Below, piece by piece: positions 2,643 through 50,681 of a DNA stretch of 64,000 nucleotides. The stretch covers positions 2,418,001 to 2,482,000 of the forward strand of contig JAFHKN010000002.1 of NCBI GenBank assembly GCA_016937575.1. Reading direction: 5' to 3'. This stretch comes from Roseomonas aeriglobus (GTDB lineage: Bacteria; Pseudomonadota; Alphaproteobacteria; Sphingomonadales; Sphingomonadaceae). A program made the translations under genes and the position numbers. Each line of letters begins with the position of its first letter. Position 1 is the stretch's first letter. The notes under the pieces were generated by a model. That model was not told where the DNA came from. It saw nothing but the letters and a program-made list of their open reading frames with translations, and searched no databases.

Positions 2643-5393
2643 ATGAAGGCGAGCGTAGCTGTCGTGGCGCGGGCAACCGTGTCGAGCGTGGCCCTGTCGA
2701 TGATGCTGACTGCGGGGGCCGCGCTGGCCCAGACCCAGCCGGCGCCGGGCCAGCTGCCCGCGCCTGTCCAGGCCGACCGACCGCCGGCACAGACTCCGGT
2801 CACCAATCCCAGCCCGGCCGAGGCGACCGACGATACCGGCGCGAACGAAATCGTCGTCACCGGCATCCGCAATTCGTTGCAGAATGCGCTGAGCGCCAAG
2901 CGGGACGCGGCGCAGGTGCTCGATGCGATCTCGGCCGAGGACATCGGCCGCTTCCCCGACAAGAACATCGGCGAGGCGCTGCAGCGTGTCACCGGCGTCC
3001 AGCTGACCCGCACCAACGGCGAAGGCTCGGGCATCACCATCCGCGGCGCGGATGCCAATCTGAACCGCGTCGAAGTCAACGGCATCACCGCGCTGTCGAC
3101 CACCGCCGGCCAGCGCGACGTCGATTTCCGCGACTTGCCGGTCGAGTTCGTCAACCGGCTGGAAGTCGTGAAGTCGGTGACGCCGGACATGACCGAAGGG
3201 GGTCTGGGCGGCACCGTGCGCGTCATCACGCGACGCCCGTTCGACAGCAAGGACAACAGCTTCCTCGCAGGGTCCGCGCAGGGCATCTACACCGAACTCG
3301 GCAAGACGCTGGACCCGAAGTTCGCGCTGATCGGATCGAAGAAGTTCTTCAACGACACGCTGGGCGTGCTGCTGTCGGGCACCTACGAACGGCGCCGCGT
3401 GGAAAGCCATGAGGCCCGCACCACCGGCTGGCGTCAGATCGACGGCAATCCGGCGCTTGCGGGGCTTCAGGCGCTCGACCTCGACAACAACGGGCGCGGC
3501 GACTTCTTCCCCGACATCCCGCGCTATATCGTCAATCGCCTCGACACGAAGCGCTACGCCTTCAACGGCGTCGTCGAATGGGGACCGCAGGATGGGCTGA
3601 AGGCGTTCGTCCAGGGCAACTACGCGCGCGGCGACCAGGACGTGAACTCGCAATTCCTGCAGGTCACCACCGCGGGCGCAACGCTCGACCGTGCCAATAC
3701 ACGGATCGGGCCGGACGACACGGTCAGCCACGTCGAGTTCGTCGACAATCCGGCCGCCACCCGGGCCAACCGCCTGCAGGTCGCGCACCGCAACATCCTG
3801 GGCCAGATCGATCGCACCCAGTGGAATGCCGCGGTCGGCGTCGATTACGAAGTCGGCGACTGGAAGATCAACACGCTGACGTCCTATACCCGCGCGAAGA
3901 TCGACAATAATTACATCAACGCCACGGCCGACGCGATCGGCATCGGCCGCGTGATCGTCGATTATACCAACGGCCAGCAGGCGCCGAACATCACGCTGCC
4001 GATGGACCCGACGACGACCGTCGGCATCAACAGCGTGACCGCGCAATATCGCCCCGTCATCAACGTCCAGACCGAACTCGCGACGAAGGGCGATGTCGAA
4101 TATCGCAACGCCACGCCCTGGCTGACATCGCTGAAGGCGGGCTACCAGGTCCGCAACGGCACCGCCGACAGCCGCGAGTTCAATGCGACCACGACGATCG
4201 ACGCGTTCACCACCCCGTCGCTGCTCGGCCGGGTGCAGCAGGTCGCCGGGCTGATGACGCTGGACGACACGCCGTTCTTCAAGACCGGGACGCTCGGCTA
4301 CGACGGCGGCATCCGCGGCTGGCTGCAGCCGGGCTACGCCTTCGTCGACGCGATCGGCCTGCCCAATCCGTTCGGTACGCCGACCCTGCTCAACACCTGG
4401 AAGGTCACCGAGCGGAATATCGCCGGATATGTCCAGGGATCGTTCAAGTTCGACCTGGGTGTGCCCGTCAGCGGCACGATCGGCGCGCGCGTCGTCAACA
4501 CGCGTACCATCGCCGACGGCTATCGCACCCAGACGGGCGTGACCGCGCCGGTGCAGTTCCGCGGCGAAGGCACCGAATTCCTGCCATCGCTGAACGTCCG
4601 CGCCGACCTGATCCGCGACACGCTGCTGTTCCGCGGATCGGCGACCGAAGTCATCGCGCGCCCGACCCCGCAGCAGCTGGCACCGCGTTTCTCGATCGAC
4701 GTCGTCGGCCTGACCGGTTCGCGCGGCAACCCGGAACTGCAGCCGTTCCGTGCACGCCAGTATGACGCCGGCTTCGAATATTACATCAACCGCACCAGCT
4801 TCCTGTCGGCCACCTATTTCCGCAAGGAAATCAGCTCGTTCATCGAAAACCGGACGCAGCCCGAAGTGGTCGACGGCGTGACCTACGCCATCACCCTGCC
4901 GGTCAACGGCGCGCAGCGCGTGACGATCAACGGTGCCGAAGTCGGTGCGCAGGTCGCGTTCGATTTCGTCAACGTGCCGGTGCTCCGGCATATGGGCGTC
5001 ATCGCCAACTACACATATTCGAAGGACAGCGGATACGCCGGCCGCGATTTCTTCACCGGCGGGGCGCTGCCCTTCCCCGGCCTGTCGCGGCACAGCTACA
5101 ATCTGTCGGCCTATTATGAAGACAGCGTGTTCAGCCTGCGCGGGTCGTACAACTGGCGGTCGAACTATCTGATCACCGCGATCGGCCGCGGCAATAATCC
5201 GGAATTCGGCGAAGCGTTCGGCCAGCTCGACGCGTCGGCCAGCGTCAACCTGACCGACAAGGTCTCGATCTTCGCGGAGGGCGTGAACCTGACCGACGCG
5301 ACCCGCGCGGAGAATGCCAACAGCGTCTATCGCCGGACGTTGCTGGAGACGTATGGCCGGCGCTTCTACGGCGGCGTGCGGTTCCGGTTCTGA
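2643..5393 (+). CDS. TonB-dependent outer-membrane receptor
   Basis: Outer-membrane receptor of 916 aa. A signal peptide ends near ALAQ (about residue 29), then a Pro-rich linker leads to a TonB-box-like EIVVTGIRNSLQNAL and a plug domain with the phrase DIGRFPDKNIGEALQRVTGV, typical of proteobacterial sugar or oligomer receptors of the TonB-dependent 'TBDT' group. The beta-barrel ends in an aromatic C-terminus (YGGVRFRF) as expected for BamA recognition. ATG 2643 has a GAGAGG ribosome site 9 nt upstream; an in-frame GTG lies directly before it. The substrate cannot be told from sequence, and neither neighbour is a catabolic gene. Confidence 0.92.
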   Translation: MKASVAVVARATVSSVALSMMLTAGAALAQTQPAPGQLPAPVQADRPPAQTPVTNPSPAEATDDTGANEIVVTGIRNSLQNALSAKRDAAQVLDAISAEDIGRFPDKNIGEALQRVTGVQLTRTNGEGSGITIRGADANLNRVEVNGITALSTTAGQRDVDFRDLPVEFVNRLEVVKSVTPDMTEGGLGGTVRVITRRPFDSKDNSFLAGSAQGIYTELGKTLDPKFALIGSKKFFNDTLGVLLSGTYERRRVESHEARTTGWRQIDGNPALAGLQALDLDNNGRGDFFPDIPRYIVNRLDTKRYAFNGVVEWGPQDGLKAFVQGNYARGDQDVNSQFLQVTTAGATLDRANTRIGPDDTVSHVEFVDNPAATRANRLQVAHRNILGQIDRTQWNAAVGVDYEVGDWKINTLTSYTRAKIDNNYINATADAIGIGRVIVDYTNGQQAPNITLPMDPTTTVGINSVTAQYRPVINVQTELATKGDVEYRNATPWLTSLKAGYQVRNGTADSREFNATTTIDAFTTPSLLGRVQQVAGLMTLDDTPFFKTGTLGYDGGIRGWLQPGYAFVDAIGLPNPFGTPTLLNTWKVTERNIAGYVQGSFKFDLGVPVSGTIGARVVNTRTIADGYRTQTGVTAPVQFRGEGTEFLPSLNVRADLIRDTLLFRGSATEVIARPTPQQLAPRFSIDVVGLTGSRGNPELQPFRARQYDAGFEYYINRTSFLSATYFRKEISSFIENRTQPEVVDGVTYAITLPVNGAQRVTINGAEVGAQVAFDFVNVPVLRHMGVIANYTYSKDSGYAGRDFFTGGALPFPGLSRHSYNLSAYYEDSVFSLRGSYNWRSNYLITAIGRGNNPEFGEAFGQLDASASVNLTDKVSIFAEGVNLTDATRAENANSVYRRTLLETYGRRFYGGVRFRF

Positions 5394-39170: not shown

Positions 39171-39917
39171 ATGCAGGATATGTCCCCACCACCCGCCGCG
39201 TCGCCGGAAATCGCCATCGACCATGTGACGCTGTCCTATGGCACACACCGCGTGCTCGACGGCCTGTCGCTGTCGGTAGCCGCAGGGGACGTCTACGCCC
39301 TGCTGGGCGGCAACGGTGCCGGCAAGTCGACGACGCTGTCCGCTCTGCTGGGCTTCGTACGCGCCGATGGCGGTAGCGTGACGGTCGGTGGGATCGATCC
39401 GGCGGCCGACCCCGATGCGGCGCGCCGGCGGATCGCCTATCTCCCCGAAAATGTCGCGCTGTACGAACATCTGAGCGCGGTCGAGAATGCCGATTATCTG
39501 CTGGCGCTGTCGGGCACGCCACGGACGCGGACCGAGATTACCGACGCGCTGATCGCGGCCGGGCTGCAGGAACGCGCCTTCGACCAGCGGCTCGGCGGCT
39601 TTTCCAAGGGCATGCGCCAGAAGGTCGCGATCGCCGTTGCGTTGCTGCGCGAAGTGCCGGTGCTGTTGCTCGACGAGCCGACATCGGGCCTCGATCCGCG
39701 CGCCACGGCGGACTTCAACGCGCTGCTCCACGCCGTTCGTGCCCGCGGCACCGCGGTGCTGATGGTCACCCATGACCTGCTGAGCGCCGCCGATGTCGCC
39801 GACCGCATCGGCTTCCTCGAACGCGGGCGAATAGTCGAGGAAGTAAAGGCCGAGGGCAGCCAGCGCTTCGATGTACGCGCGTTGCACGAACGCTTCGCGG
39901 GCGCGACGTCGGCATGA
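39171..39917 (+). CDS. ABC transporter ATP-binding protein
   Basis: A 248-aa ATPase of the NosF/CcmA-like export type. It has Walker A GGNGAGKST, Q-loop YLPENVALYEHL, signature FSKGMRQK, Walker B VLLLDEPTSGLD and switch His VTHDL. It overlaps the first permease by ATGA. The three-gene export unit (39171-42603) diverges from two TonB receptors. Confidence 0.95.
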   Translation: MQDMSPPPAASPEIAIDHVTLSYGTHRVLDGLSLSVAAGDVYALLGGNGAGKSTTLSALLGFVRADGGSVTVGGIDPAADPDAARRRIAYLPENVALYEHLSAVENADYLLALSGTPRTRTEITDALIAAGLQERAFDQRLGGFSKGMRQKVAIAVALLREVPVLLLDEPTSGLDPRATADFNALLHAVRARGTAVLMVTHDLLSAADVADRIGFLERGRIVEEVKAEGSQRFDVRALHERFAGATSA

Positions 39918-41350
39918 GCGCGATTTCCCTTATCGCGCGGGACGAACTGCGGCTGATGCGGCGCAATCGCGTCGCCGTGACCGCGGTCATCCTCTTGCTG
40001 GTGCTCACCCTGACCGCAGTCGTCACGTCGTGGACCCATCAACAGGGCATCGCCGAAACGCGCGCGCGCCATCAGGCGGAGGCGAACCATGCCTTCGAAG
40101 CGCAGCCCGACCGCCATCCGCACCGCGTCGTCCATTACGGCCACTTCATCTTCCGCCCGCTGGGGCCGCTCGCCGCCTTCGATCCCGGCGTCGATGCCTT
40201 CACCGGCAACAGCATGTTCCTGGAGGGACACCGCCAGAACACCGCCAATTTCGGTGACGTGCGGCAAAGCTCGCTGCTGGTCCGCTTCGGCCAGTTGACC
40301 CCGGCGTTCGTATTACAGGCGGTCGCGCCGTTGCTGCTGATCTTCCTGGGCTATGGCGTCGTCGCGCGCGAAACCGAACGCGGCACGCTGCGTCCGCTGA
40401 TGCTGCAAGGGGCGTCGGCCAAGGCGATCGTCCTCGGGAAACTCGGCGCGCTCGGCCTGGTCGCCGTTCTGGTCGGGTTGCCGGCGATGATCGGTTTCGT
40501 CCTGATCTCGGGCCAGCCGGGTGCCTATGCCGGACCGATGGCGGTTATCGCACTCGCCTATGCCGCCTATCTCGCGCTGTGGGTCGTCGCCATCACCCTG
40601 GTTTCGATCCTCGTCCGGCGTCGGCGCGACGCGCTGCTGGCGCTGCTGGCGATCTGGGCCGTGACGGTCGTGCTGCTGCCGCGTGTGGCCCCCGATATCG
40701 CGGGCCAGGCCCATCCGCTGGCGAACCGGCTCCAGACCGACGTCGCGATCGCCCGCGACCTGCGCCGCATGGGCGACAGCCATAACCCTGACGACCCGCA
40801 CTTCGCCGCGTTCAAGGCGAACGTCCTCAAACGCTACGGCGTGAGCCGGGTCGAGGACCTGCCCGTCAACTACAAGGGTCTGCTGGCGCTGGAAGGCGAA
40901 GCGATGACCAGCAAGCTGTTCGATCGCTATGCCGGCGACAGTTTCCGGGTCCAGGCGGCACAGAACGGCCTGGTCGCCGGCATCGGCCTGCTCAGCCCGA
41001 CGATCGCGCTGAAACAGGCGTCGATGGCCGCTGCCGGCACCGACTTCGCCGGACACCGCCGCTTCCTGGAGCAGGCGGAGGCGTATCGCTACGATCTGGT
41101 CCAGCGGCTCAATCGACTGCAGGCGGAGGCGGTCAGCTACGCCGACGACACCGCCAAGGATGCCGGTGCCGACCGCCGCAAGCGGATCGGCGCGGATAAC
41201 TGGCAACGGATGCCCGAGTTCGCCTTCGTCCAGCCCGATCCCGCGACGCTGGTACGCGCCAGCCTGCCGGGGCTGGGCATCATCCTTGGCTGGCTGGCGA
41301 TCGGCGCGCTTGCGCTGGCCGTCGCCACCCGCCGGTTGGGAGCGAAGTGA
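39914..41350 (+). CDS. ABC permease, DUF3526-type (first)
   Basis: A 478-aa membrane protein. There is one N-terminal helix (about residues 22-42), a large periplasmic loop (about 43-140, rich in His: QPDRHPHRVVHYGHF), then a block of four or five helices (about 145-270), a second long soluble domain (about 275-450) and a final helix. This matches NosY/DUF3526-type permeases with a big extracytoplasmic domain. The substrate is unknown. Coupled to the ATPase upstream and to the second permease downstream. Confidence 0.85.
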   Translation: MSAISLIARDELRLMRRNRVAVTAVILLLVLTLTAVVTSWTHQQGIAETRARHQAEANHAFEAQPDRHPHRVVHYGHFIFRPLGPLAAFDPGVDAFTGNSMFLEGHRQNTANFGDVRQSSLLVRFGQLTPAFVLQAVAPLLLIFLGYGVVARETERGTLRPLMLQGASAKAIVLGKLGALGLVAVLVGLPAMIGFVLISGQPGAYAGPMAVIALAYAAYLALWVVAITLVSILVRRRRDALLALLAIWAVTVVLLPRVAPDIAGQAHPLANRLQTDVAIARDLRRMGDSHNPDDPHFAAFKANVLKRYGVSRVEDLPVNYKGLLALEGEAMTSKLFDRYAGDSFRVQAAQNGLVAGIGLLSPTIALKQASMAAAGTDFAGHRRFLEQAEAYRYDLVQRLNRLQAEAVSYADDTAKDAGADRRKRIGADNWQRMPEFAFVQPDPATLVRASLPGLGIILGWLAIGALALAVATRRLGAK

Positions 41351-42603
41351 TGCCGATCTGGATCCACGAAACCCGGCTGCTGCTCCGGTCGCGCCTGGCG
41401 AGCATCGCGCTCGTCCTGCTGGCGGTGCTGAGCGCCGCTGCGGTCACCGCGGGCATGGCCGAGATTGCGCGTCAACGGGCAGCGATCGCCGCCATCCACC
41501 CGGCGCAGACCGAGGATATCACCGCGATCGCCAATTTCGTCGATCGCGACAAGGATGCCGGCACCGCCGCCTATTACAGTTTCTACCCGACGTGGGACGC
41601 CCCCGCCCCGCTCGCCTTCGCCGCGATCGGCATGCGGGACGTGGCGCCCTATATCCTGCGCGTCCGCGCGCTGGGGCTGGAGGCGCAGATCTATGACGGC
41701 GATACGTTCAATCCCGAACTCGCGCTGCCGGGGCGGTTCGATTTCGCCTTCGTCCTGGTTTTTCTGGCGCCGCTGTTCGCGATCGCGCTGTTCCACGATC
41801 TGAGATCGGGCGAGCGCGAGGCGGGACGCGCGCGGATGCTCGATGCGATGCCGGGCAGCGGGCGGCTATGGCTGCGACGCGGGCTCGTGCGGTTCGCGCT
41901 GCTGCTGGCGGCACTGATCTTACCGTTCGTGGTCGGGGCGATCCTGTCCGGCGTGAGTGCGGGCGCGATCGTAGCGATCGTCGCGGTCGCCGCGCTCTAC
42001 CTTCTGTTCTGGATCGGGCTGTCGGGGCTCGTCTCGCGGTTCGGGCGGGGCTCTACCGCCAATGCCGCGACGCTTGCGGGATTGTGGCTGGTGCTGGTGC
42101 TGGTCATCCCGACGCTTGCCAACGTGCTGGTCAATCGCGCCATCCCGGTCGACGAAGGCTCGCAGATCGCACTCGCCCAGCGCGAAAACGTCCATCACGC
42201 CTGGGAAATCCCGCGCGAGGAAACGATGCGCCGATTCTATGCGCGCAATCCGGAGTGGGCGGATTCGGCACCGCTTCCGGTCGCTTTCCACTATAAATGG
42301 TATTTCGCCTTTCATCAGAATGGCGACGACAGCGTCGCTGACCGAGTGAAGGCATATCGCGCCGGGCTGGAACGTCGCGCGGCGACCGCCAATGCGCTCG
42401 GCTGGGTCCTGCCCTCGGTCGGTGTGCAGGCACTTCTCACGCGAATGGCGCAAACCGACCTCGCCGCGCAGCTCGCCTACCAGGATCGCATCCGCGAATT
42501 CCATCGCCGGCTGCGGACCTTCTTCTACGGCTATATGTTCCGGGACCGTCCCTTCGCGAAAGCGGACTTCGATCGCGCGCCAAGGTTCGTCGACATCCGG
42601 TAA
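41350..42603 (+). CDS. ABC permease, DUF3526-type (second)
   Basis: A 417-aa membrane protein with the same plan as its neighbour: an N-terminal helix (LASIALVLLAVLSAAAVTAG), a periplasmic loop, FDFAFVLVFLAPLFAIALFHDLRSGEREAG beginning the core helices, and a long soluble C-terminal part (YKWYFAFHQNGDDSVADRVK) with no final helix apparent. ATG 41350 shares one base with the previous stop. The two permeases probably form a heterodimer with the ATPase. Confidence 0.85.
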   Translation: MPIWIHETRLLLRSRLASIALVLLAVLSAAAVTAGMAEIARQRAAIAAIHPAQTEDITAIANFVDRDKDAGTAAYYSFYPTWDAPAPLAFAAIGMRDVAPYILRVRALGLEAQIYDGDTFNPELALPGRFDFAFVLVFLAPLFAIALFHDLRSGEREAGRARMLDAMPGSGRLWLRRGLVRFALLLAALILPFVVGAILSGVSAGAIVAIVAVAALYLLFWIGLSGLVSRFGRGSTANAATLAGLWLVLVLVIPTLANVLVNRAIPVDEGSQIALAQRENVHHAWEIPREETMRRFYARNPEWADSAPLPVAFHYKWYFAFHQNGDDSVADRVKAYRAGLERRAATANALGWVLPSVGVQALLTRMAQTDLAAQLAYQDRIREFHRRLRTFFYGYMFRDRPFAKADFDRAPRFVDIR

Positions 42604-42671: not shown

Positions 42672-42812
42672 ACACGGCGTCGGCGAACTAGGCGCAATCA
42701 CACCAACCGTACAAAAACGCCGCTTTCCAGAACCTTACCCGGCATCAGTCGTTAACCACGCCAGCGACGAGCAGGCGTGAAGCGCCTTTTCGTATCTTCG
42801 GAGAGGCAATTG

Positions 42813-43736
42813 ATGCTGGGCGATCGACCCGAACTGCACACAGTCGCGGCCGCGCTCGAGTCCGGGGCGACGGCCTTCACCGTCTGCGAGCTGGCCGAAG
42901 GCGTCACGCTGGCCGGCCCGGCTTTCGAAGGCGTCGCGGCCTATCATGTCCTTGCCGGGACGATGCATGTCCGCCTGCAGTGCGGCGCGCATCATGTCGC
43001 CCCGGCCGATACCATGATGCTTGTGCCCGCCCGACAGGCACCGCGTCTGTCGATGGCCGCGGACGGAGACGACGACGTCGTAATGGACGGCCGTAGCTGC
43101 TTGGTCCGCGCCGGCGGCTGGATCGTCGCCGATGCGACCGGTGGCCGCCCACCCGGGCTGATCGTCGCAGCCGCGCGGATTACGGGCACGGATCAGGCTT
43201 CGCTGTCCGCGCCACAGATCATCCCGCTGAGTAACGACGCCGTCGGGCGGCGCCTGTCGGCGCTGCTGCGCGAAGAGGTCGCCAATCCGGGTGCAGCCAA
43301 TGGCGCGTTCGCGATCGCCATCATGACGTCGTGCATCGTACTCGCGCTGCGCAAGGCGATGGTCGACGATGGCGCCGGCGCTTCGACGACCGGACGGTCG
43401 GCGCCGTTCGTCAGCCGCGCGCTCGCCGCGGTGCGGTCGGAACCCGGTGCCCCGCATACCCCCGACACGCTGGCGACAGCAGCGGGCATGAGTCGGGCGA
43501 CGTTCGTCCGCCAGTTCGCGCGTGCGACGGGCAAATCGCCGATGCAGTTCGTCCAGGAACTGCGCCTGAGCGAGGCGGCCGGAATGCTGCGCACCGGCGC
43601 GTTGCCGGTGAAGACGGTCGCCGCACAGACCGGCTTTGCCAGCAGGAGCCATTTTTCGCGCGCGTTTCGAAAGGCCTATGGCTGCGATCCGACGAGTTTT
43701 CGCCAGCAAGCCCCGCTTGCGTCGTCGGTGGAATAA
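42813..43736 (+). CDS. AraC-family regulator with cupin-like sensor domain
   Basis: A 307-aa protein. The N-terminal cupin-like part (residues about 10-100: YHVLAGTMHVRLQCGAHHVA, DTMMLVPARQAPRL) resembles AraC_binding sensors. The C-terminal double HTH is at about 200-300 (DTLATAAGMSRATFVRQFAR, LPVKTVAAQTGFASRSHFSR, AFRKAYGCDPTSFR). ATG 42813 has GGAGAGG 7-13 nt upstream and is preferred over an in-frame GTG at 42777. Candidate regulator of the divergent receptor/ABC cluster just upstream; unproven. Confidence 0.88.
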   Translation: MLGDRPELHTVAAALESGATAFTVCELAEGVTLAGPAFEGVAAYHVLAGTMHVRLQCGAHHVAPADTMMLVPARQAPRLSMAADGDDDVVMDGRSCLVRAGGWIVADATGGRPPGLIVAAARITGTDQASLSAPQIIPLSNDAVGRRLSALLREEVANPGAANGAFAIAIMTSCIVLALRKAMVDDGAGASTTGRSAPFVSRALAAVRSEPGAPHTPDTLATAAGMSRATFVRQFARATGKSPMQFVQELRLSEAAGMLRTGALPVKTVAAQTGFASRSHFSRAFRKAYGCDPTSFRQQAPLASSVE

Positions 43737-43888: not shown

Positions 43889-43913
43889 GGAACGCCCTAA
43901 AACTCCACCCGTT
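43889..43913 (+). promoter_or_regulatory. EcfG-type promoter of the small-protein/T1SS operon
   Basis: GGAAC (43889-43893), exactly 16 bases, then CGTT (43910-43913): a full match to the alphaproteobacterial general-stress sigma factor EcfG consensus GGAAC-N16/17-CGTT. Transcription would start near 43920, leaving a leader of about 60 nt with AGGATAGGA as ribosome site before ATG 43982. Confidence 0.75.
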
Positions 43914-43981
43914 CTTTCACCACGACCAACGACCCGCAGGTCGGTTCAAGGTCTTTTACGGACGAGGATAGGAGTTTCATC

Positions 43982-44245
43982 ATGGCTGGTCTTACGAACA
44001 TTTTTGGCGGCAACGACGATAGCTCGAGCAGCAACGATTCGAACTTTGCGACGGACACCGTCGCCGATGCGTCGAGCATGGTTGGTCTCGACGTCAACTC
44101 GTCGCAGTCGAACTACAGCGAAGACGAAGACGGCAACATCTCGTCGACGCAGAACGACAACAGCCTGGGCCTGGACGCCGATACCGACGGCCTGCTCGGC
44201 AACATGACCGACCTGGTGTCGAGCAGTGATCAGACCACCGAGTGA
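43982..44245 (+). CDS. Small acidic protein, putative T1SS substrate 1
   Basis: An 87-aa Ser/Asp/Asn-rich, strongly acidic protein beginning MAGLTNIFGG, with no Cys, no signal peptide and little hydrophobic content. The acidic polar body (SSQSNYSEDEDGNISSTQND, LGLDADTDGLLGNMTDL) resembles glycine/aspartate-rich T1SS cargo in composition, but it lacks RTX nonapeptides. A similar N-terminus (MPGLFSTIF) is found in the 89-aa protein that closes the operon. A consensus EcfG promoter lies upstream and a terminator immediately downstream, so this gene should be the most highly transcribed of the operon. No family recognised. Confidence 0.8.
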   Translation: MAGLTNIFGGNDDSSSSNDSNFATDTVADASSMVGLDVNSSQSNYSEDEDGNISSTQNDNSLGLDADTDGLLGNMTDLVSSSDQTTE

Positions 44246-44268
44246 TCGGCCTGACGTGATCTAACCAA

Positions 44269-44299
44269 GGGGCGGGCGGTCATTCGCCTGCCCCTTTTT
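44269..44299 (+). terminator. Rho-independent terminator inside the operon
   Basis: GGGGCGGGCG (44269-44278), a 6-nt loop, CGCCTGCCCC (44285-44294; one mismatch), then TTTTT (44295-44299). This is the clearest intrinsic terminator in this region. It lies between the first small protein gene and the rest of the secretion operon, so readthrough would set a high cargo-to-transporter ratio. Confidence 0.85.
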
Positions 44300-44312
44300 C
44301 GTGATGTCGCAC

Positions 44313-45419
44313 ATGATCGAGACGCTGCTCAATCCCGACAACCGTCTGCTCACGTGGTCGATCAACGACCTGGGGCTCTACGGCGCTGCGTTGACGCCGG
44401 CGACGGTGTCGGCTGCTGAGCAACGGCGCGAATATTTCCGCGACGACAGCGCGCGGCCAGCGACGTCGAGCGACACGTCGCTGCATCCGGGCGGCGCCGC
44501 CGGCGGGCCTCCGTTCGAACTCGCGACAGGATCCGATCGCACGACGGTCACGGACGATGGGCCGGACGGGCCGGTCGCCACCGCTGCCGTCCAGCCGACG
44601 ATGCTGCCCCTGCCGGCCCTCTCGGCCCCGGCGATCTCGACCTTGGCGACCAGCGCCCCGACCGATCTGAGCATGGGATCGACGACCGGGGTTTTCGTCC
44701 CCGCCCCCGTTCCGCCGCCGACGGCGCCGACCCTGGTGTCGACCAGTCCGATCGATCCCGCCACCACCCTGTCCGCACCGGTCCTTGCCACCGGATCGGT
44801 CGTCGACACCGCGACGCTGACCGTCCCCGGCCTCGTCGGACAGACGCAAACTCTCGCAACCGATACTGTCGAAGGCGTCGTACCGGCGGTCGCGCAGACC
44901 GCCCCGCCGCTCGTGGAAGCAGCCGCCGACACGGTGCAGGCCGCGACTGAGACGCTTGCCGATGCAGCAGCGACGACGGCGGCAACCCTGGACGCGGCGG
45001 TCGACGATATCGCGACGCGCGCCGAACAGGCCGCCGACGGCGCGCTGGATCCCGTGATGGCGACGGCGGATGGCATCATTGCTCCCGCGGTGGCCCCGGT
45101 CGTCGATGCTCTCGCTGCGACTGAAATTCCCGACACTGCGTCGGCGCTGATCGAGACCGCCGCGACCTCCACGACCGACCTGTTGTCCGGCGTCGGTGGA
45201 ACCGATCCCGCCGGCGGTGTCGCCACATTGGTCGATATCGTCGCCGCCGCCGATGAATTCGACCTGTCGCACGTCGATGCAGCGCCCGTCGCCGACACCG
45301 GGTCGATCGTCGACCTGCTGGCGGTCGACTTGGACGACGCGCCGTTGCTGGGCGCCGGCGACGACGATCACGGCCCCACCGACGACGAGTCGCATGGGCT
45401 GCTCGGATTGGGATTATGA
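44313..45419 (+). CDS. Ala/Thr/Pro-rich low-complexity protein of secretion operon
   Basis: A 368-aa protein. Residues about 1-40 (MIETLLNPDNRLLTWSINDL, then GAALTPATVSAAEQRREYF) look folded. The rest is low-complexity Ala/Thr/Val/Pro/Asp sequence with loose valine-alanine repeats and an acidic end (DDDHGPTDDESHGLLGLGL). It has no RTX repeats, Cys or signal peptide. ATG 44304 and GTG 44301 are alternative starts; none has a good ribosome site because the terminator hairpin lies directly before. AGGAG for the ABC gene overlaps its end. It may be a larger cargo, a tether or a periplasmic accessory. No family recognised. Confidence 0.68.
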   Translation: MIETLLNPDNRLLTWSINDLGLYGAALTPATVSAAEQRREYFRDDSARPATSSDTSLHPGGAAGGPPFELATGSDRTTVTDDGPDGPVATAAVQPTMLPLPALSAPAISTLATSAPTDLSMGSTTGVFVPAPVPPPTAPTLVSTSPIDPATTLSAPVLATGSVVDTATLTVPGLVGQTQTLATDTVEGVVPAVAQTAPPLVEAAADTVQAATETLADAAATTAATLDAAVDDIATRAEQAADGALDPVMATADGIIAPAVAPVVDALAATEIPDTASALIETAATSTTDLLSGVGGTDPAGGVATLVDIVAAADEFDLSHVDAAPVADTGSIVDLLAVDLDDAPLLGAGDDDHGPTDDESHGLLGLGL

Positions 45420-45432
45420 GGAGCGACACGCA

Positions 45433-47247
45433 GTGACGGCACCCCTGACCCCATCCGATATCCAGGAAGAGCAGAAGAAGGCCGACGTCGCCACGGCCGA
45501 GCTCGTCGCCCTCGACAGCGCCGCGCGCTCCGCCGAACTCGAACAAGGCGACGAGTTCGCCTCCGCGCTTCGGCAATGCAAGCGACTGATCTGGACCGCG
45601 GCGATCTTCAGCGGCGGGGTCAATCTGCTGTTCCTCGCCTCCCCGCTCTACCTGATCGAGGTCTATCAGCGCGTCATCCCCAGCGGCAGCATCCCGACGC
45701 TCGTTTCCTTGAGTATCGGCCTGGTCATGGCGCTCGCGACGCTGGCGGTGTTCGACGCGGTGCGCGCGCGGATCCTGGTGCGGGCCGCGGCGCGGCTCGA
45801 TCGCATCCTCGCCCACCGCGTTTTCCAGGCGATCGTCGACATCGCGCCGCGCACCGGCGCGACGGCACGCAACGCGCAGATGCTGCGCGACCTCGACCAG
45901 TTCCGCACCGCGCTCGCGGGACAGGGCGCGCAATTCTTCTTTGACGTGCCGTGGATGCCGCTGTTTCTGATCGCGCTGTTCATCATCCACCCGATCCTGG
46001 GACTGACCGGCCTGATCGGGGCCGCCATCCTGCTGGCGATCGCGGTCTACAACAACGCCTCCACCAAGGAGAGCGCGAAGGACGCGCAGGAGGCATCGGT
46101 GCGCAGTTACCAGTTCACCGACAGCGTCGCGCGCCATGCCGGCCCGGTCCGCGCGATGGGGATGGAGGATGCGCTGGCGGTCCACTGGCATATCGACCGT
46201 GAGACGATGATGCGCCGCCAGGCCGACGGCAGCGATCGCGGCGCGGACGTGACCGCCGCGTTCAAGTTCGTCCGCCTTGTCATGCAGAGCGCGATGATCG
46301 GCGTCGGTGGCTATCTGGCGGTGCAAGGCGCGCTGCTGCCCGCCGCGATCTTTGCCGCCAACCTGTTGCTGGGCCGGGCGCTGGCCCCGCTGGAGCTGGC
46401 CGTCACCGGCTGGCGCACGATCGGCAATGCGGTGACCGCCGGCCGTCGCGTCCAGCGCGCACTCATCCAGGCGCCGCCGCGCCCGACCAAGGTCAAGCTG
46501 CCCAACACCGATGTCGACATCGCCGTCGAAAACGCGATCTACATCCCGCCGGGCGGGCGACGCCCTATCCTGAAGAATATCTCGCTGCGTATTGCCGCGG
46601 GTGAAGCCGTCGGCATCGTCGGACCAAGCGGGGCGGGCAAGTCGAGCCTGGCGCAGATGCTGGTCTGCGTCACCGACCCCACCCAGGGGCGCGTGACGGT
46701 CGGTGGGGTGGAGGGCAAGCACTGGACCCCCGAAAGCCTGTCCGAACATGTCGGCTACCTGCCGCAGACGGTCGGGCTGTTTCCCGGCACGATCCGCGAG
46801 AACATCGCCCGCTTTACCAAGGCGACCGATGAAGAGGTCGTGCTGGCGGCCTGCCGCGCCAACGTCCACGACATGATCCTGAAATTGCCTGACGGCTATG
46901 AGACGCGCGTCGAGGAAGGCGGATCGGGGCTGTCCGGCGGGCAGCGCCAGCGGATCGGCCTGGCACGCGCGATGTTCGGATCGCCGCGCCTGCTGGTGCT
47001 CGACGAGCCCAACGCCCATCTCGACAGCGACGGCGAGGAGGCTCTTGCCGCGGCGCTCGCGACGCTGAAGTCCGAGGGGTCGACCATCGTCCTCATCGCG
47101 CATCGGCTCAATCCGATAGCGCATGTCGACCGGGTGATCGTGCTGAACGACGGCGAATTGCAGCTCGATGGACCCCGCGCGCGCGTGTTCCGCAAGGTGA
47201 AGACCGAACTGATCCGCTCGGTCGCCCGCCAGCCGGTGGAGGCATGA
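45433..47247 (+). CDS. Type I secretion ABC transporter (PrtD-like)
   Basis: A 604-aa fused membrane-ATPase half-transporter. After a charged N-terminal 50 residues come about six helices (residues about 55-310; no C39 peptidase domain), then the nucleotide-binding domain: Walker A GPSGAGKSS (397-405), YLPQTVGLFPGTIRENI, signature LSGGQRQR, Walker B LVLDEPNAHLD and H-loop IAHRL. The phrase VPWMPLFLIALFIIHPILG is typical of PrtD/HasD-type T1SS exporters. GTG 45433 has AGGAG about 10 nt upstream. It pairs with the HlyD-like gene 4 bases downstream. No TolC-like outer-membrane gene is present. Confidence 0.93.
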   Translation: MTAPLTPSDIQEEQKKADVATAELVALDSAARSAELEQGDEFASALRQCKRLIWTAAIFSGGVNLLFLASPLYLIEVYQRVIPSGSIPTLVSLSIGLVMALATLAVFDAVRARILVRAAARLDRILAHRVFQAIVDIAPRTGATARNAQMLRDLDQFRTALAGQGAQFFFDVPWMPLFLIALFIIHPILGLTGLIGAAILLAIAVYNNASTKESAKDAQEASVRSYQFTDSVARHAGPVRAMGMEDALAVHWHIDRETMMRRQADGSDRGADVTAAFKFVRLVMQSAMIGVGGYLAVQGALLPAAIFAANLLLGRALAPLELAVTGWRTIGNAVTAGRRVQRALIQAPPRPTKVKLPNTDVDIAVENAIYIPPGGRRPILKNISLRIAAGEAVGIVGPSGAGKSSLAQMLVCVTDPTQGRVTVGGVEGKHWTPESLSEHVGYLPQTVGLFPGTIRENIARFTKATDEEVVLAACRANVHDMILKLPDGYETRVEEGGSGLSGGQRQRIGLARAMFGSPRLLVLDEPNAHLDSDGEEALAAALATLKSEGSTIVLIAHRLNPIAHVDRVIVLNDGELQLDGPRARVFRKVKTELIRSVARQPVEA

Positions 47248-47251
47248 TGCC

Positions 47252-48589
47252 ATGAAGCTCGATTTCCTCTCCCTCGGCGGTGGTGGCGCTCCCGATGCCA
47301 GTGCGCCGCGCCGGACGATCGACCGGCGAATGCGGCTGCTCGACATGCAGCCGCTCGACAAGGCCGACAGGACCGTCCGCGTCGGCTTGATCGTCGGCTT
47401 CGGCTTCATCGCGCTCATCCTGTTGTTCGCGCTGGTCGCGCCGATCTCCAGCGCCGCCATCGCCAGCGGGGAAGTCACCGTCAGTGGCGACAAATACCAG
47501 ATCCAGCCGGTCACCGGCGGCATCGTCACGCAGGTGTTGGTGAAGGAGGGGCAATTGGTCCGCGCCGGTCAGCCGCTCGTCCGGCTGAACGGGGTGAAGT
47601 CCGGGGCGTCGCTGGCGCAGGCGCAGGCCGAACGCGATACGCTCCAGGCGCTCGAGGCACGGCTGGTCGCCGAACGCGACGGGGCGGAGCGGCTGGTCTT
47701 CCCTGCCGATCTCACGTCCCGCGCGTCCGATCCCGTCGTGGCGCGCGCCATGGCCGGGCAGCAGGCGCTGTTCGCCCGGCACATGGCCGTTCTGGCAGCC
47801 GACCGGGCAAACAGCGACCAGAGCCTGGCCGCGGCCACCGCGCAACAGGCCGCCGCACGCAAGCAGCTTGCGCTGATCGAGGACGAGCTGCGAGATTATC
47901 GGATGCTCTACGAGCGGGGCTTTGCCCGCAAGACGACGATCCGCTCGCTCGAACGCACGCAGGCGCAGCTGCAGGCGGATACCGCCGCAGGCCTGGCGAC
48001 CACAAATCAGGCGCGGATCGCCGCACAGAAGGTGCGCGACAGCCAGATGGTCGATCTTTCCACCGAACTTGCCGAAACCCAGGCCAAGCTCGCCCAGATC
48101 ACCCCGCAACTGGAAGTCAGCCGCTACGCCGCCGATCAGGACGTATTGCGCGCGCCGACGACAGGTCGCGTTTCGGGCATTCAGTCGATGGGGCCGGGAA
48201 TGGTCCTGTCGGGCGGAGCGACGATCATGGAACTGGTTCCCACCGGTCGTCCGCTGATCGTCGAGGTGCGCGTGAAGCCCGCCGACATCGACGATGTCCG
48301 CGTCGGGCAAAAGGCGACGGTGCGCTTCTCGACCGCCAACCCGCACGGACAGAACGCCTTCGACGGCACCTTGGTCACCCTGTCGCCCGCCAGCATGACC
48401 GTCGGCGAGCAGACCTTTTACAAGGCGCAGGTCACGATCGACGACCCGGCTGCGGTGCGCCGCGAGGGGCTCGGCCTGCAGCCCGGCGTCCCTGCCTCGG
48501 TCAACATCACCACCGCCGACCGAACCCTGTTCGAATATATCTTCGGCCCCCTGACCGCGGCCTTCAGCCGCAGCTTTCGAGAGGAGTGA
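47252..48589 (+). CDS. HlyD-family membrane fusion protein
   Basis: A 445-aa type I secretion adaptor. There is one membrane helix at about residues 43-65 (VGLIVGFGFIALILLFALVA), a lipoyl/barrel-sandwich hybrid (QPVTGGIVTQVLVKEGQLVR), a long coiled coil (about 115-290, heptads of Ala/Gln/Leu), and then the C-terminal beta-barrel (LRAPTTGRVSGIQSMGPGM, GLQPGVPASVNI). Links the ABC exporter to a TolC-type channel, which must be encoded elsewhere. GGAGG lies 12 nt before ATG 47252. Confidence 0.95.
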   Translation: MKLDFLSLGGGGAPDASAPRRTIDRRMRLLDMQPLDKADRTVRVGLIVGFGFIALILLFALVAPISSAAIASGEVTVSGDKYQIQPVTGGIVTQVLVKEGQLVRAGQPLVRLNGVKSGASLAQAQAERDTLQALEARLVAERDGAERLVFPADLTSRASDPVVARAMAGQQALFARHMAVLAADRANSDQSLAAATAQQAAARKQLALIEDELRDYRMLYERGFARKTTIRSLERTQAQLQADTAAGLATTNQARIAAQKVRDSQMVDLSTELAETQAKLAQITPQLEVSRYAADQDVLRAPTTGRVSGIQSMGPGMVLSGGATIMELVPTGRPLIVEVRVKPADIDDVRVGQKATVRFSTANPHGQNAFDGTLVTLSPASMTVGEQTFYKAQVTIDDPAAVRREGLGLQPGVPASVNITTADRTLFEYIFGPLTAAFSRSFREE

Positions 48590-48592
48590 CCC

Positions 48593-48862
48593 ATGCCCGG
48601 CCTGTTCAGCACGATCTTCGACGAAACGGACAGCGACGGTGGTCGCGAGACACAGACGAGCGACCACAGCGCCGATGCCGGCACCGACCTGCATCTCGAT
48701 CCATCGATCACCATCGAGAGCCACATGGGCGGGACGTATGAAACGCCCGACGGGACGACGCACAGCTGGGAACGCACCGATAGCGTCACGCTGGAAACCG
48801 ACACGCAGATCGTCACGCATGTCAGCGCGACGGTAAGCGACATGACCGTCGACGAAGGCTAG
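48593..48862 (+). CDS. Small acidic protein, putative T1SS substrate 2
   Basis: An 89-aa Asp/Thr/Ser-rich acidic protein beginning MPGLFSTIFDETDSDGGRET. The start MxGL..IF matches the first small protein of the operon (MAGLTNIF). The second half alternates Thr/Val/His in a beta-strand-like pattern (DSVTLETDTQIVTHVSATVS). It has no Cys and no signal peptide. GAGAGGAG lies before the ATG, 4 bases after the HlyD-like stop. I infer an exported cargo; no known family. Confidence 0.75.
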   Translation: MPGLFSTIFDETDSDGGRETQTSDHSADAGTDLHLDPSITIESHMGGTYETPDGTTHSWERTDSVTLETDTQIVTHVSATVSDMTVDEG

Positions 48863-49042: not shown

Positions 49043-50233
49043 TCAGACGATCTCGAACAGCCCCGCCGCGCCCATGCCACCGGCGGTGCACATGCTGACG
49101 ACGACATAGCGTACGCCGCGCCGCCGCCCTTCGAGCAGAGCCGCCCCGACCAGGCGGCTGCCCGTCATGCCGAACGGATGGCCAAGCGCAATGGCGCCGC
49201 CGTTGACGTTGTACGTCGCCGGGTCGATGCCCAGCGTGTCGCGACAATAGAGGCACTGGCTGGCGAAGGCCTCGTTCAACTCCCACAGGCCGATGTCGGC
49301 GACCGACAGCCCGGCGCGCTCCAACAGCTTGGGAACGGCGAAAACCGGACCGATACCCATTTCCTCCGGTGCGCACCCCGCCACCTGGAAGCCGCGGTAG
49401 AGCCCCAAAATCTCCTTGCCCTCCGCCTCCGCCATCGCGCGGTCCATCACGATCTGTGCAGCGGCGCCATCGGACAGCTGGCTGGCGTTGCCCGCGGTGA
49501 TCGCGCGGCCTTCGGGCACCAGCGTCCCACCCGACCAGACGGTGCGCAGGCCGGCGAGCGCTTCATAGGTCGTGCCGGCACGGACGCCTTCGTCGGCCGT
49601 GACGGTTACCGTCTCGGTGCCAGTGACGGTCCCATCCTTGTCGAGCAGCGCTCTTTCGACCGTGACGGGAACGATCTCCTCGGCGATGCGGGACGCAGCG
49701 GCAGCGGCGCGCTGCTGGCTCTCGGCGGCATAGCGATCCTGCGCCTCGCGGCTGATACCATAGCGCTCGGCGACGACCTCGGCCGTCTCGATCATCTGCA
49801 TCGTCGCATGGGGCACGCGTTCGGTGACCGAACGGGCCGCCATCCGCGGCGCCCCCTTCACGACGGTATGGCTGATCGATTCCATGCCGCCGGCCAGCGC
49901 CACATCGATGTCCCCGGCGATGATCGAGCGCGCCGCCAGCGCGACCGCGGTCAGGCCGGAGCCGCATTTGCGGTCCAGCGTGAAGGCCGGCACCGACTGT
50001 GGCAGGCCGGCGGCAAAGACCGCCATCCGGCCGGCGTTACCGCCCTGCTCGCCCCACTGGCTGCCCACGCCCCAGAAGATGTCGTCGATCCGCGCCGGAT
50101 CGATGCCTGCACGCTCGATCGCTCCGTTCATCGCGAACCCGGCGAGCGCGGGCGCCTCGGTCGCGTTGAAATAGCCGCGATAGGCCTTGCCGATACCGGT
50201 CCGGGCGGTGGCGATGATCGCGGCTTCACGCAT
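49043..50233 (-). CDS. Acetyl-CoA C-acyltransferase (thiolase)
   Basis: A 396-aa thiolase with all three catalytic elements: nucleophile Cys 90 (DRKCGSGL), His 352 ([14 protein letters not shown]) and Cys 382 (MCTAGGMG), plus NEAFA. It condenses or cleaves beta-ketoacyl-CoA. It lies in an 8-base overlap with the thioesterase upstream, so the pair is co-translated. Acetoacetyl-CoA thiolase and 3-ketoacyl-CoA thiolase cannot be separated from sequence alone. Confidence 0.94.
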
Positions 50234-50681
50234 GGGGGGTGTCCTGATCGAGGGTTATGCCGGCCAGCGCGACCCGCCACGCCTCGGCAAGCGGCTGGGG
50301 GCGGCGATTGGCGCGGTCGACATAGACATGAACGAACCGTGCCTCGGCCGCCGCCTCCGCGTCTCCTGCTGCGAAGGCGCCGAGGACATAAGTGACGCTC
50401 GATGTGCCCACCCGATCGACCGCCAGCCCGATCTCGATCGCCTGCGGGTAGGACAAGGGCCGGGCATAGCGGCAGCCGGTTTCGACGACGAGGCCGATCG
50501 TCTCGCCCGCCTCCACATCCAGCAAACCAACCGCGAACAGCCAGTTGTTCACCGCTGTGTCGAACCAATGATAGTAGATCGAATTATTGACGTGGCCATA
50601 CATGTCGTTGTCGCTCCACCGCGTCACGATGGGCTGCCACTGGCGATAGGCGGCACGCGGCCGGAACGGGAGCTTGGACAT
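50226..50681 (-). CDS. Acyl-CoA thioesterase (4-hydroxybenzoyl-CoA type hotdog)
   Basis: A 151-aa hotdog-fold thioesterase. The sequence WSDNDMYGHVNNSIYYHWFD carries the conserved Asp of 4HBT thioesterases (D.d..GHvnN..Y..w.d); GLVVETGCRYARPLSYPQAI follows the second strand pattern. Starts at ATG 50681. It hydrolyses an acyl- or aroyl-CoA; co-expression with thiolase suggests a CoA-ester degradation module. Confidence 0.88.
   Translation of the reverse strand: MSKLPFRPRAAYRQWQPIVTRWSDNDMYGHVNNSIYYHWFDTAVNNWLFAVGLLDVEAGETIGLVVETGCRYARPLSYPQAIEIGLAVDRVGTSSVTYVLGAFAAGDAEAAAEARFVHVYVDRANRRPQPLAEAWRVALAGITLDQDTPHA

Follow-up and report, generated by a model that had tools for sequence, protein, structure and literature searches.

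A candidate stress-linked type I secretion locus for lysine- and arginine-poor acidic proteins in Roseomonas aeriglobus

The window analysed here, a 64,000-nucleotide stretch of the Roseomonas aeriglobus genome, contains at positions 43889–48862 one co-directional cluster made up of a promoter, the gene for a small acidic protein (s87), a hairpin, the gene for a larger protein (p368), the genes for an ABC exporter and its adaptor, and the gene for a second small acidic protein (s89) (Table 1). We read this locus as a dedicated, stress-linked type I secretion system (T1SS) for mostly disordered acidic proteins that are poor in Lys and Arg, and as a variant of the PrtD type. From comparison across related loci, s87, p368 and s89 are probably the dedicated cargo of the adjoining exporter, with expression likely to be under the control of the general-stress sigma factor EcfG. 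Among the titles listed by searches of the open-licence literature, none names this locus.

Table 1. Features of the secretion cluster and its conserved neighbour (positions are those of the window).
Feature	Position	Strand	Details
AraC-family regulator, conserved neighbour	42777..43736	+	PF12833, 88.1 bits
EcfG-like promoter GGAAC-N16-CGTT	43889..43913	+	pattern match; 93 nt 5′ of s87 start; kept across loci
s87, 87-aa acidic protein, candidate main cargo	43982..44245	+	lacks Lys, Arg, His, Cys and Pro
s87 N-terminal motif MAGLTNIFG, candidate export signal	43982..44008	+	M..L..[ILV][FL] form in aligned s87
Hairpin with T-run, terminator- or attenuator-like	44266..44298	+	-25.9 kcal/mol; scan match 44270-44293
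p368, 368-aa Ala/Thr/Pro/Val-rich acidic protein, candidate large cargo	44313..45419	+	0 Lys, 7 Arg
PrtD-type type I secretion ABC exporter, GTG start, 604 aa, without C39	45433..47247	+	TIGR01842
HlyD-type periplasmic adaptor	47252..48589	+	TIGR01843
s89, 89-aa acidic protein, candidate second small cargo, N-terminus MPGLFSTIFD	48593..48862	+	four predicted beta strands

The initial annotation described this arrangement as one compact operon. All of the named parts were found on the + strand; however, the strong hairpin with its T-run splits s87 from p368, so that the compact operon may in practice mean read-through past a partial terminator. Across 16 of 16 s87 copies the best local hairpin after the gene was at or below -21.9 kcal/mol (median -29.9), compared with a median of -17.3 kcal/mol for 178 control genes, 36 of which reach -21.9 and five of which reach the s87 median. 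A T-run of at least four within 110 nt of the s87 stop codon is seen in part of the copies only. From these features we infer that s87 expression would be high and read-through partial. For p368, alternative in-frame starts are possible at 44301 and 44304.

The gene neighbourhood is also partly conserved. In seven loci, among them the window, L057, L060, L073 and L074, the cluster has an AraC-family gene as a neighbour, and the six homologues outside the window lie 5′ of s87 in five cases and 3′ of the s89-like gene in L055. A Crp/Fnr-type gene stands beside the cluster in the four divergent-branch loci scanned for it, and L058 and L059 look similar. Just upstream in the window, positions 39171-42603 hold an unrelated export cluster, consisting of three adjacent genes, one ABC ATPase-like and two resembling ABC-2/DUF3526 permeases.

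The ABC protein scored 603.1 bits on TIGR01842, the PrtD family (cut-off 510.15), and the adaptor 286.8 bits on TIGR01843 (cut-off 208.65), which places them as a T1SS ABC exporter and an HlyD-type adaptor, respectively. The best match of the ABC protein among solved structures was PDB 5l22 (405.6 bits), the PrtD protein of Aquifex (PMC8277102). Three absences recorded at the outset were borne out: the ABC protein gave no C39 family match at E up to 1, no frame anywhere in the window has more than one RTX nonapeptide, and the window contains no TIGR01844 match that could represent an outer-membrane channel.

Comparison with related genomes showed that the exporter clade is sharply bounded. Among 201 congeneric genomes, 11 gave matches of at least 819 bits to the ABC protein (65-100% identity), whereas the best ABC protein outside the clade reached 418 bits and 41% identity. 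In all 11 of these clade genomes a TolC family protein scores above the TIGR01844 cut-off elsewhere in the genome, and the unlinked one in the window's own genome is a candidate partner. An exporter tree with 83 members (79 from an 80-locus exporter set, three further genomes and the window), made by a quick search without bootstrap and midpoint-rooted, separates the 16 clade rows from all others at a branch with an SH-aLRT value of 100. The clade rows include Croceibacterium, Brevundimonas and Caulobacter, and the members from outside the genus come from the 80-locus set. Class-wide draws covering 376 genomes gave, outside the window's own genome, no s87 and no clade exporter at E ≤ 1e-140, the next best score being 527 bits. 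Frames with at least four RTX nonapeptides were found up to 6 kb from the exporter in 20 of the 54 loci outside this clade and its sister, compared with 0 of 15 clade loci, the window being counted separately. RTX cargo within about 6 kb was rejected for the clade, as none is present at its 16 loci.

In loci read directly, s87 adjoins the exporter in 14 of the 15 clade loci where it would be visible, namely 10 of 11 genus loci together with L064, L073, L074 and L075, so that the linkage is seen in Sphingomonas, Croceibacterium, Brevundimonas and Caulobacter. Sphingomonas strains that carry the locus include S. hankookensis KCTC 22579 and S. xinjiangensis DSM 26736. L056 is a clade locus without s87 beside the exporter, and L069 was left out of the count since its contig starts too near. 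The co-occurrence check proposed with the initial annotation agreed: a profile built from 27 s87 sequences matched 10 of the 201 genomes, comprising 9 of 11 with the exporter and 1 of 190 without it (Fisher 4e-13, a value overstated because congeneric genomes are not independent). Reading of the loci raises the former count to 10 of 11. The sole match in a genome without the exporter (G165) was set aside as weak, partial, interrupted by an internal TGA and adjacent to a Cas9-like gene; the region concerned, L063 568-5072, was judged by eye to hold the Cas9-like gene and its neighbours. In the protein search, most s87 homologues lay on short contigs that provide no context.

It had been proposed that small proteins occurring away from any ABC/HlyD neighbours would refute a dedicated system. 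Such copies do occur in the literal sense, as additional unlinked s87 genes in L061 and L062, but both genomes encode the exporter elsewhere. The picture of an exporter bracketed by small cargo of an unfamiliar class is partly supported, by the co-occurrence and linkage of s87, and is qualified by these unlinked copies and by the Cdz precedent discussed below. On the other flank, an s89-like protein is encoded 3′ of the adaptor in 6 of 16 clade loci. No match for s87, s89 or p368 was found in PHROGs.

The stress link was first suggested by an apparent EcfG promoter upstream of s87. Taken singly, this site lacks significance (1.97 matches are expected in the window and 1 is found), but it is conserved across loci: GGAAC-N16/17-[CG]GTT lies 81-93 nt 5′ of 9 of 16 s87 copies, both unlinked copies included, compared with 3 of 166 other genes of those stretches that have it in the preceding 150 nt (Fisher 5e-9). 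When the motif was widened post hoc to admit GCAAC and TGAAC, the counts became 13 of 16 and 6 of 166, and the three copies still outside it are those of Croceibacterium, Brevundimonas and Caulobacter. Upstream of nepR, the same EcfG-like motif is found in 8 of the 11 clade genomes, and that of L153 agrees in every letter with the one given for Sphingomonas melonis Fr1 gene 1444, which appears in a table of EcfG-dependent genes (PMC6599016). In Sphingopyxis the commonest -35 boxes are given as GGAAC and GCAAC, with GGTT among the -10 boxes (PMC7083833). The s87 motif, and its position within about 100 bp of the gene, correspond to the motif and 100-bp enrichment described in PMC6599016. The word 'secretion' has 0 occurrences in the main texts of these two papers, and the s87 promoter sequences are absent from the printed S. 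melonis top-50 table (PMC6599016), although the strains studied may not carry the locus. Overall, the proposal of a stress promoter for s87 gains support from the cross-locus comparison.

The composition of the candidate cargo is distinctive. Lys and Arg are both absent from 26 of 27 s87 sequences, and Cys from 27 of 27. Across the 45 stretches read, 24 of 353 unique predicted proteins of at least 80 aa are free of Lys and Arg, and these comprise 15 s87 copies and 9 further frames that lie beside an exporter of the clade or its sister, where 'beside' was judged afterwards and some frames had been shortened by the simple gene caller. Both small proteins are hydrophilic, with GRAVY values of -0.64 for s87 and -0.65 for s89. 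The AlphaFold2 model of s87 has low confidence (mean pLDDT 55.9), which is in keeping with disorder, whereas that of s89 contains four strands with good confidence at residues 41-70. The family DUF6299 (PF19816) aligned with s89 at 23.4 bits (E 5.4e-5), below its gathering cut-off of 26.8, and a fold search with the s89 model returned nothing at E ≤ 0.001, the best rows being lysenin pore chains (E 0.0046, TM 0.36).

A short N-terminal motif is common to s87 and s89. The form M..L..[ILV][FL] starts all 21 aligned s87 rows. When a matrix built from s87 only was used to rank 199 other proteins, five downstream small proteins took the 1st to 5th places (rank test p 1e-5, with six of the seven downstream proteins belonging to one family), while the window s89 ranked 10th and the L055 s89 43rd. 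A motif search of the window's own genome gave 5 matches, the gap allowed in it covering the s87 form only and leaving the s89 form outside; the search of 11 genomes gave 68, including the window s87 and s89. Seven others picked by eye from the 68 yielded no new cargo, none being a Lys/Arg-free, cargo-like protein. The IFGG of the window s87 resembles a double-glycine leader; the second glycine, and often the first, varies among relatives. A C39/double-glycine system was rejected on the peptidase, for which the search described above gave no family match.

In a profile comparison, s87 aligned with s89 along a DG-centred stretch (prob 83), and one s89-like protein was linked in this way at E 0.045, the sequences being compositionally biased. 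A relation between the two small proteins is accordingly suggestive only, and is offered as a lead. Two longer proteins encoded 3′ of the adaptor, in L053 (3890-5056, 388 aa) and L054 (4458-5531, 357 aa), have zero Lys and Arg and contain DG units resembling the s87 core. There are five such units in the former and four in the latter, numbers reached by 1 and 12 of 5000 shuffles, respectively, and the L053 protein has three consecutive 33-residue spacings between them. The periodicity as a whole is borderline (its value is reached in 43 and 60 of 1000 shuffles), single DG units score no better than 1 to 14 of 200 shuffles, and neither protein was among the matches of the s87-core profile. Tandem s87-like units in these proteins may be regarded as a lead. 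In L052, a 96-aa acidic protein (MIMAGLLTDMFGGG...) is encoded at 4627-4917, 3′ of the s89-like gene; it shares the N-terminal motif and matched nothing in Pfam.

The p368 protein, too, looks like cargo. Close to the C-terminus, it has a segment of the form G[STA][DN]PxxG[IVL]xTL in 14 of 16 loci, all but those of Brevundimonas and Caulobacter, and the N-terminal LLNPDNRLL is conserved in the closer loci only. Signals for type I secretion are classically C-terminal. This raises the alternative that the exporter carries p368 only, and that s87 and s89 are intracellular stress proteins co-transcribed with it for timing, as might also be suggested by the unlinked s87 copies in two genomes. We consider this unlikely, since s87 and s89 have an N-terminal motif in common, the depletion of Lys and Arg spans s87, s89 and p368, and s87 is missing from genomes without the exporter but for one doubtful match in 190.

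The tree also revealed a sister clade of 13 loci from Phyllobacteriaceae, Labrys and Paracoccus (L076-L081, L084, L088-L090, L093, L099 and L106), which adjoins the present clade with joint support of 99. Again, no RTX frame (at least four nonapeptides) lies up to 6 kb from the exporter (0 of 13). In several loci read, small Lys/Arg-poor proteins are encoded upstream and long low-complexity proteins 3′ of the adaptor, and examples of sequence from the small upstream proteins are MLDFLFGG in L081 and L084 and MLSFLFGG in L093. However, the cargo sequences differ, having DGLLGG and GVTDVVG repeats and C-terminal ends such as GSLLHGLI, and no s87 match was obtained in the sister loci scanned.

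Microcin exporters combine a C39 peptidase with double-glycine leaders, and HasA is a folded haem-binding protein. The initial annotation had assumed that known T1SS loci carry RTX or double-glycine cargo, but this is not always so, as the precedents of HasA (PMC8277102) and Cdz (PMC5380434) illustrate. With the Microcin V-type systems, the locus shares small proteins exported in one step (PMC10231218), as is predicted here; it differs in that C39, which is present in MchF (PMC8277102), is lacking and the s87 glycines are not conserved. The HasA/HasD system is similar in its non-RTX cargo, uncleaved as is proposed here, and in an exporter without C39 or CLD (PMC8277102), yet no HasA family match was found among the candidate cargo. 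The PrtD type is matched by ABC and adaptor families above cut-off and by the lack of C39; here the locus departs from it in having no RTX protein within about 6 kb, Lys/Arg-poor candidate cargo, the N-terminal motif and the EcfG-like promoter.

The closest resemblance is to the Cdz system of Caulobacter crescentus, in which proteins of 84-86 aa with an N-terminal signal are served by a T1SS pair without its own TolC (PMC5380434). Cdz is induced on entering stationary phase (PMC5380434), so that the notion of a stress-linked T1SS as unusual is weakened by this precedent, even as the promoter comparison supports the stress link itself. Could the locus be a Cdz-like bacteriocin system, placing small-protein toxins on the surface to act against neighbouring bacteria? 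Besides the shared architecture and induction, the beta-hairpin pore stems (lysenin) that head the weak fold matches of the s89 model and a glycine-rich stretch in small proteins from the Labrys and Mesorhizobium loci of the sister clade point in this direction. The cargo of Cdz, however, consists of hydrophobic toxins of the glycine-zipper type whose leader, which ends in G[G/A/S], is processed, and an immunity gene accompanies them (PMC5380434), whereas s87 is hydrophilic and acidic, with no glycine zipper by eye. Moreover, 14 of 16 clade loci showed no small membrane-like genes up to 3 kb from the ABC gene in a crude hydropathy scan; neither of its two matches (the borderline window 50226-50681 and one in L073) is a convincing immunity candidate. 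Membership of Cdz was rejected on this difference in cargo chemistry, zippers having been assessed by eye only, and a bacteriocin function ranks next after the p368-only alternative as an improbable explanation. We file the locus under PrtD-type T1SS rather than as Cdz-like, with Cdz as its nearest working analogue.

It is very improbable that the exporter's cargo is unrelated and comes from genes at other sites, such as those for RTX proteins, with the adjoining small proteins incidental. T1SS pairs can serve unlinked cargo, and in one clade genome an RTX protein lies about 5 kb off the cluster, but that protein, with 8 repeats, stands at L057 11825-17984 together with its own ABC/HlyD pair, and s87 both co-occurs with the clade exporter and is linked to it across four genera.

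A dedicated, stress-linked exporter could work as follows. Stress would free EcfG from NepR, upon which transcription would be strongest for s87, with the exporter genes reached via read-through past the hairpin. The small cargo, unfolded and polyanionic, would be recognised through its short hydrophobic N-terminal motif, and p368 perhaps through its conserved C-terminal segment. The route out would lead through the PrtD channel and a TolC encoded at another site, with the chains threaded along it, and it is proposed that they remain uncleaved because the ABC protein has no C39 domain. In Aquifex PrtD, which is without C39 or CLD, the entry surface is highly basic (PMC8277102), and acidic chains free of Lys and Arg may suit such a channel, an inference drawn by analogy. 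Outside the cell the cargo might act as a polyanion at the surface or in a matrix and may form Ca2+-dependent DG hairpins; this is the least certain step, and a guess.

A broader proposal, which is possible but which we think has the balance of probability against it, is that the locus represents a new T1SS branch: a PrtD-type system with neither peptidase nor RTX, in which an uncleaved 'LSxIFG' signal would direct Lys/Arg-free DG-hairpin polyanions into a general-stress coat, with a further arm in Rhizobiales and Rhodobacterales. Such proteins may have escaped shotgun proteomics, since without Lys or Arg there is no internal tryptic cleavage and they would be missed in standard trypsin-based secretomes. 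If the reading of the locus is correct, a cargo class that is neither RTX nor bacteriocin would be added to type I secretion, and a protein exporter would be tied to the alphaproteobacterial general stress response. How PrtD-type exporters choose their cargo could also be studied here, in a naturally occurring system that lacks a peptidase and whose putative N-terminal signal is very short.
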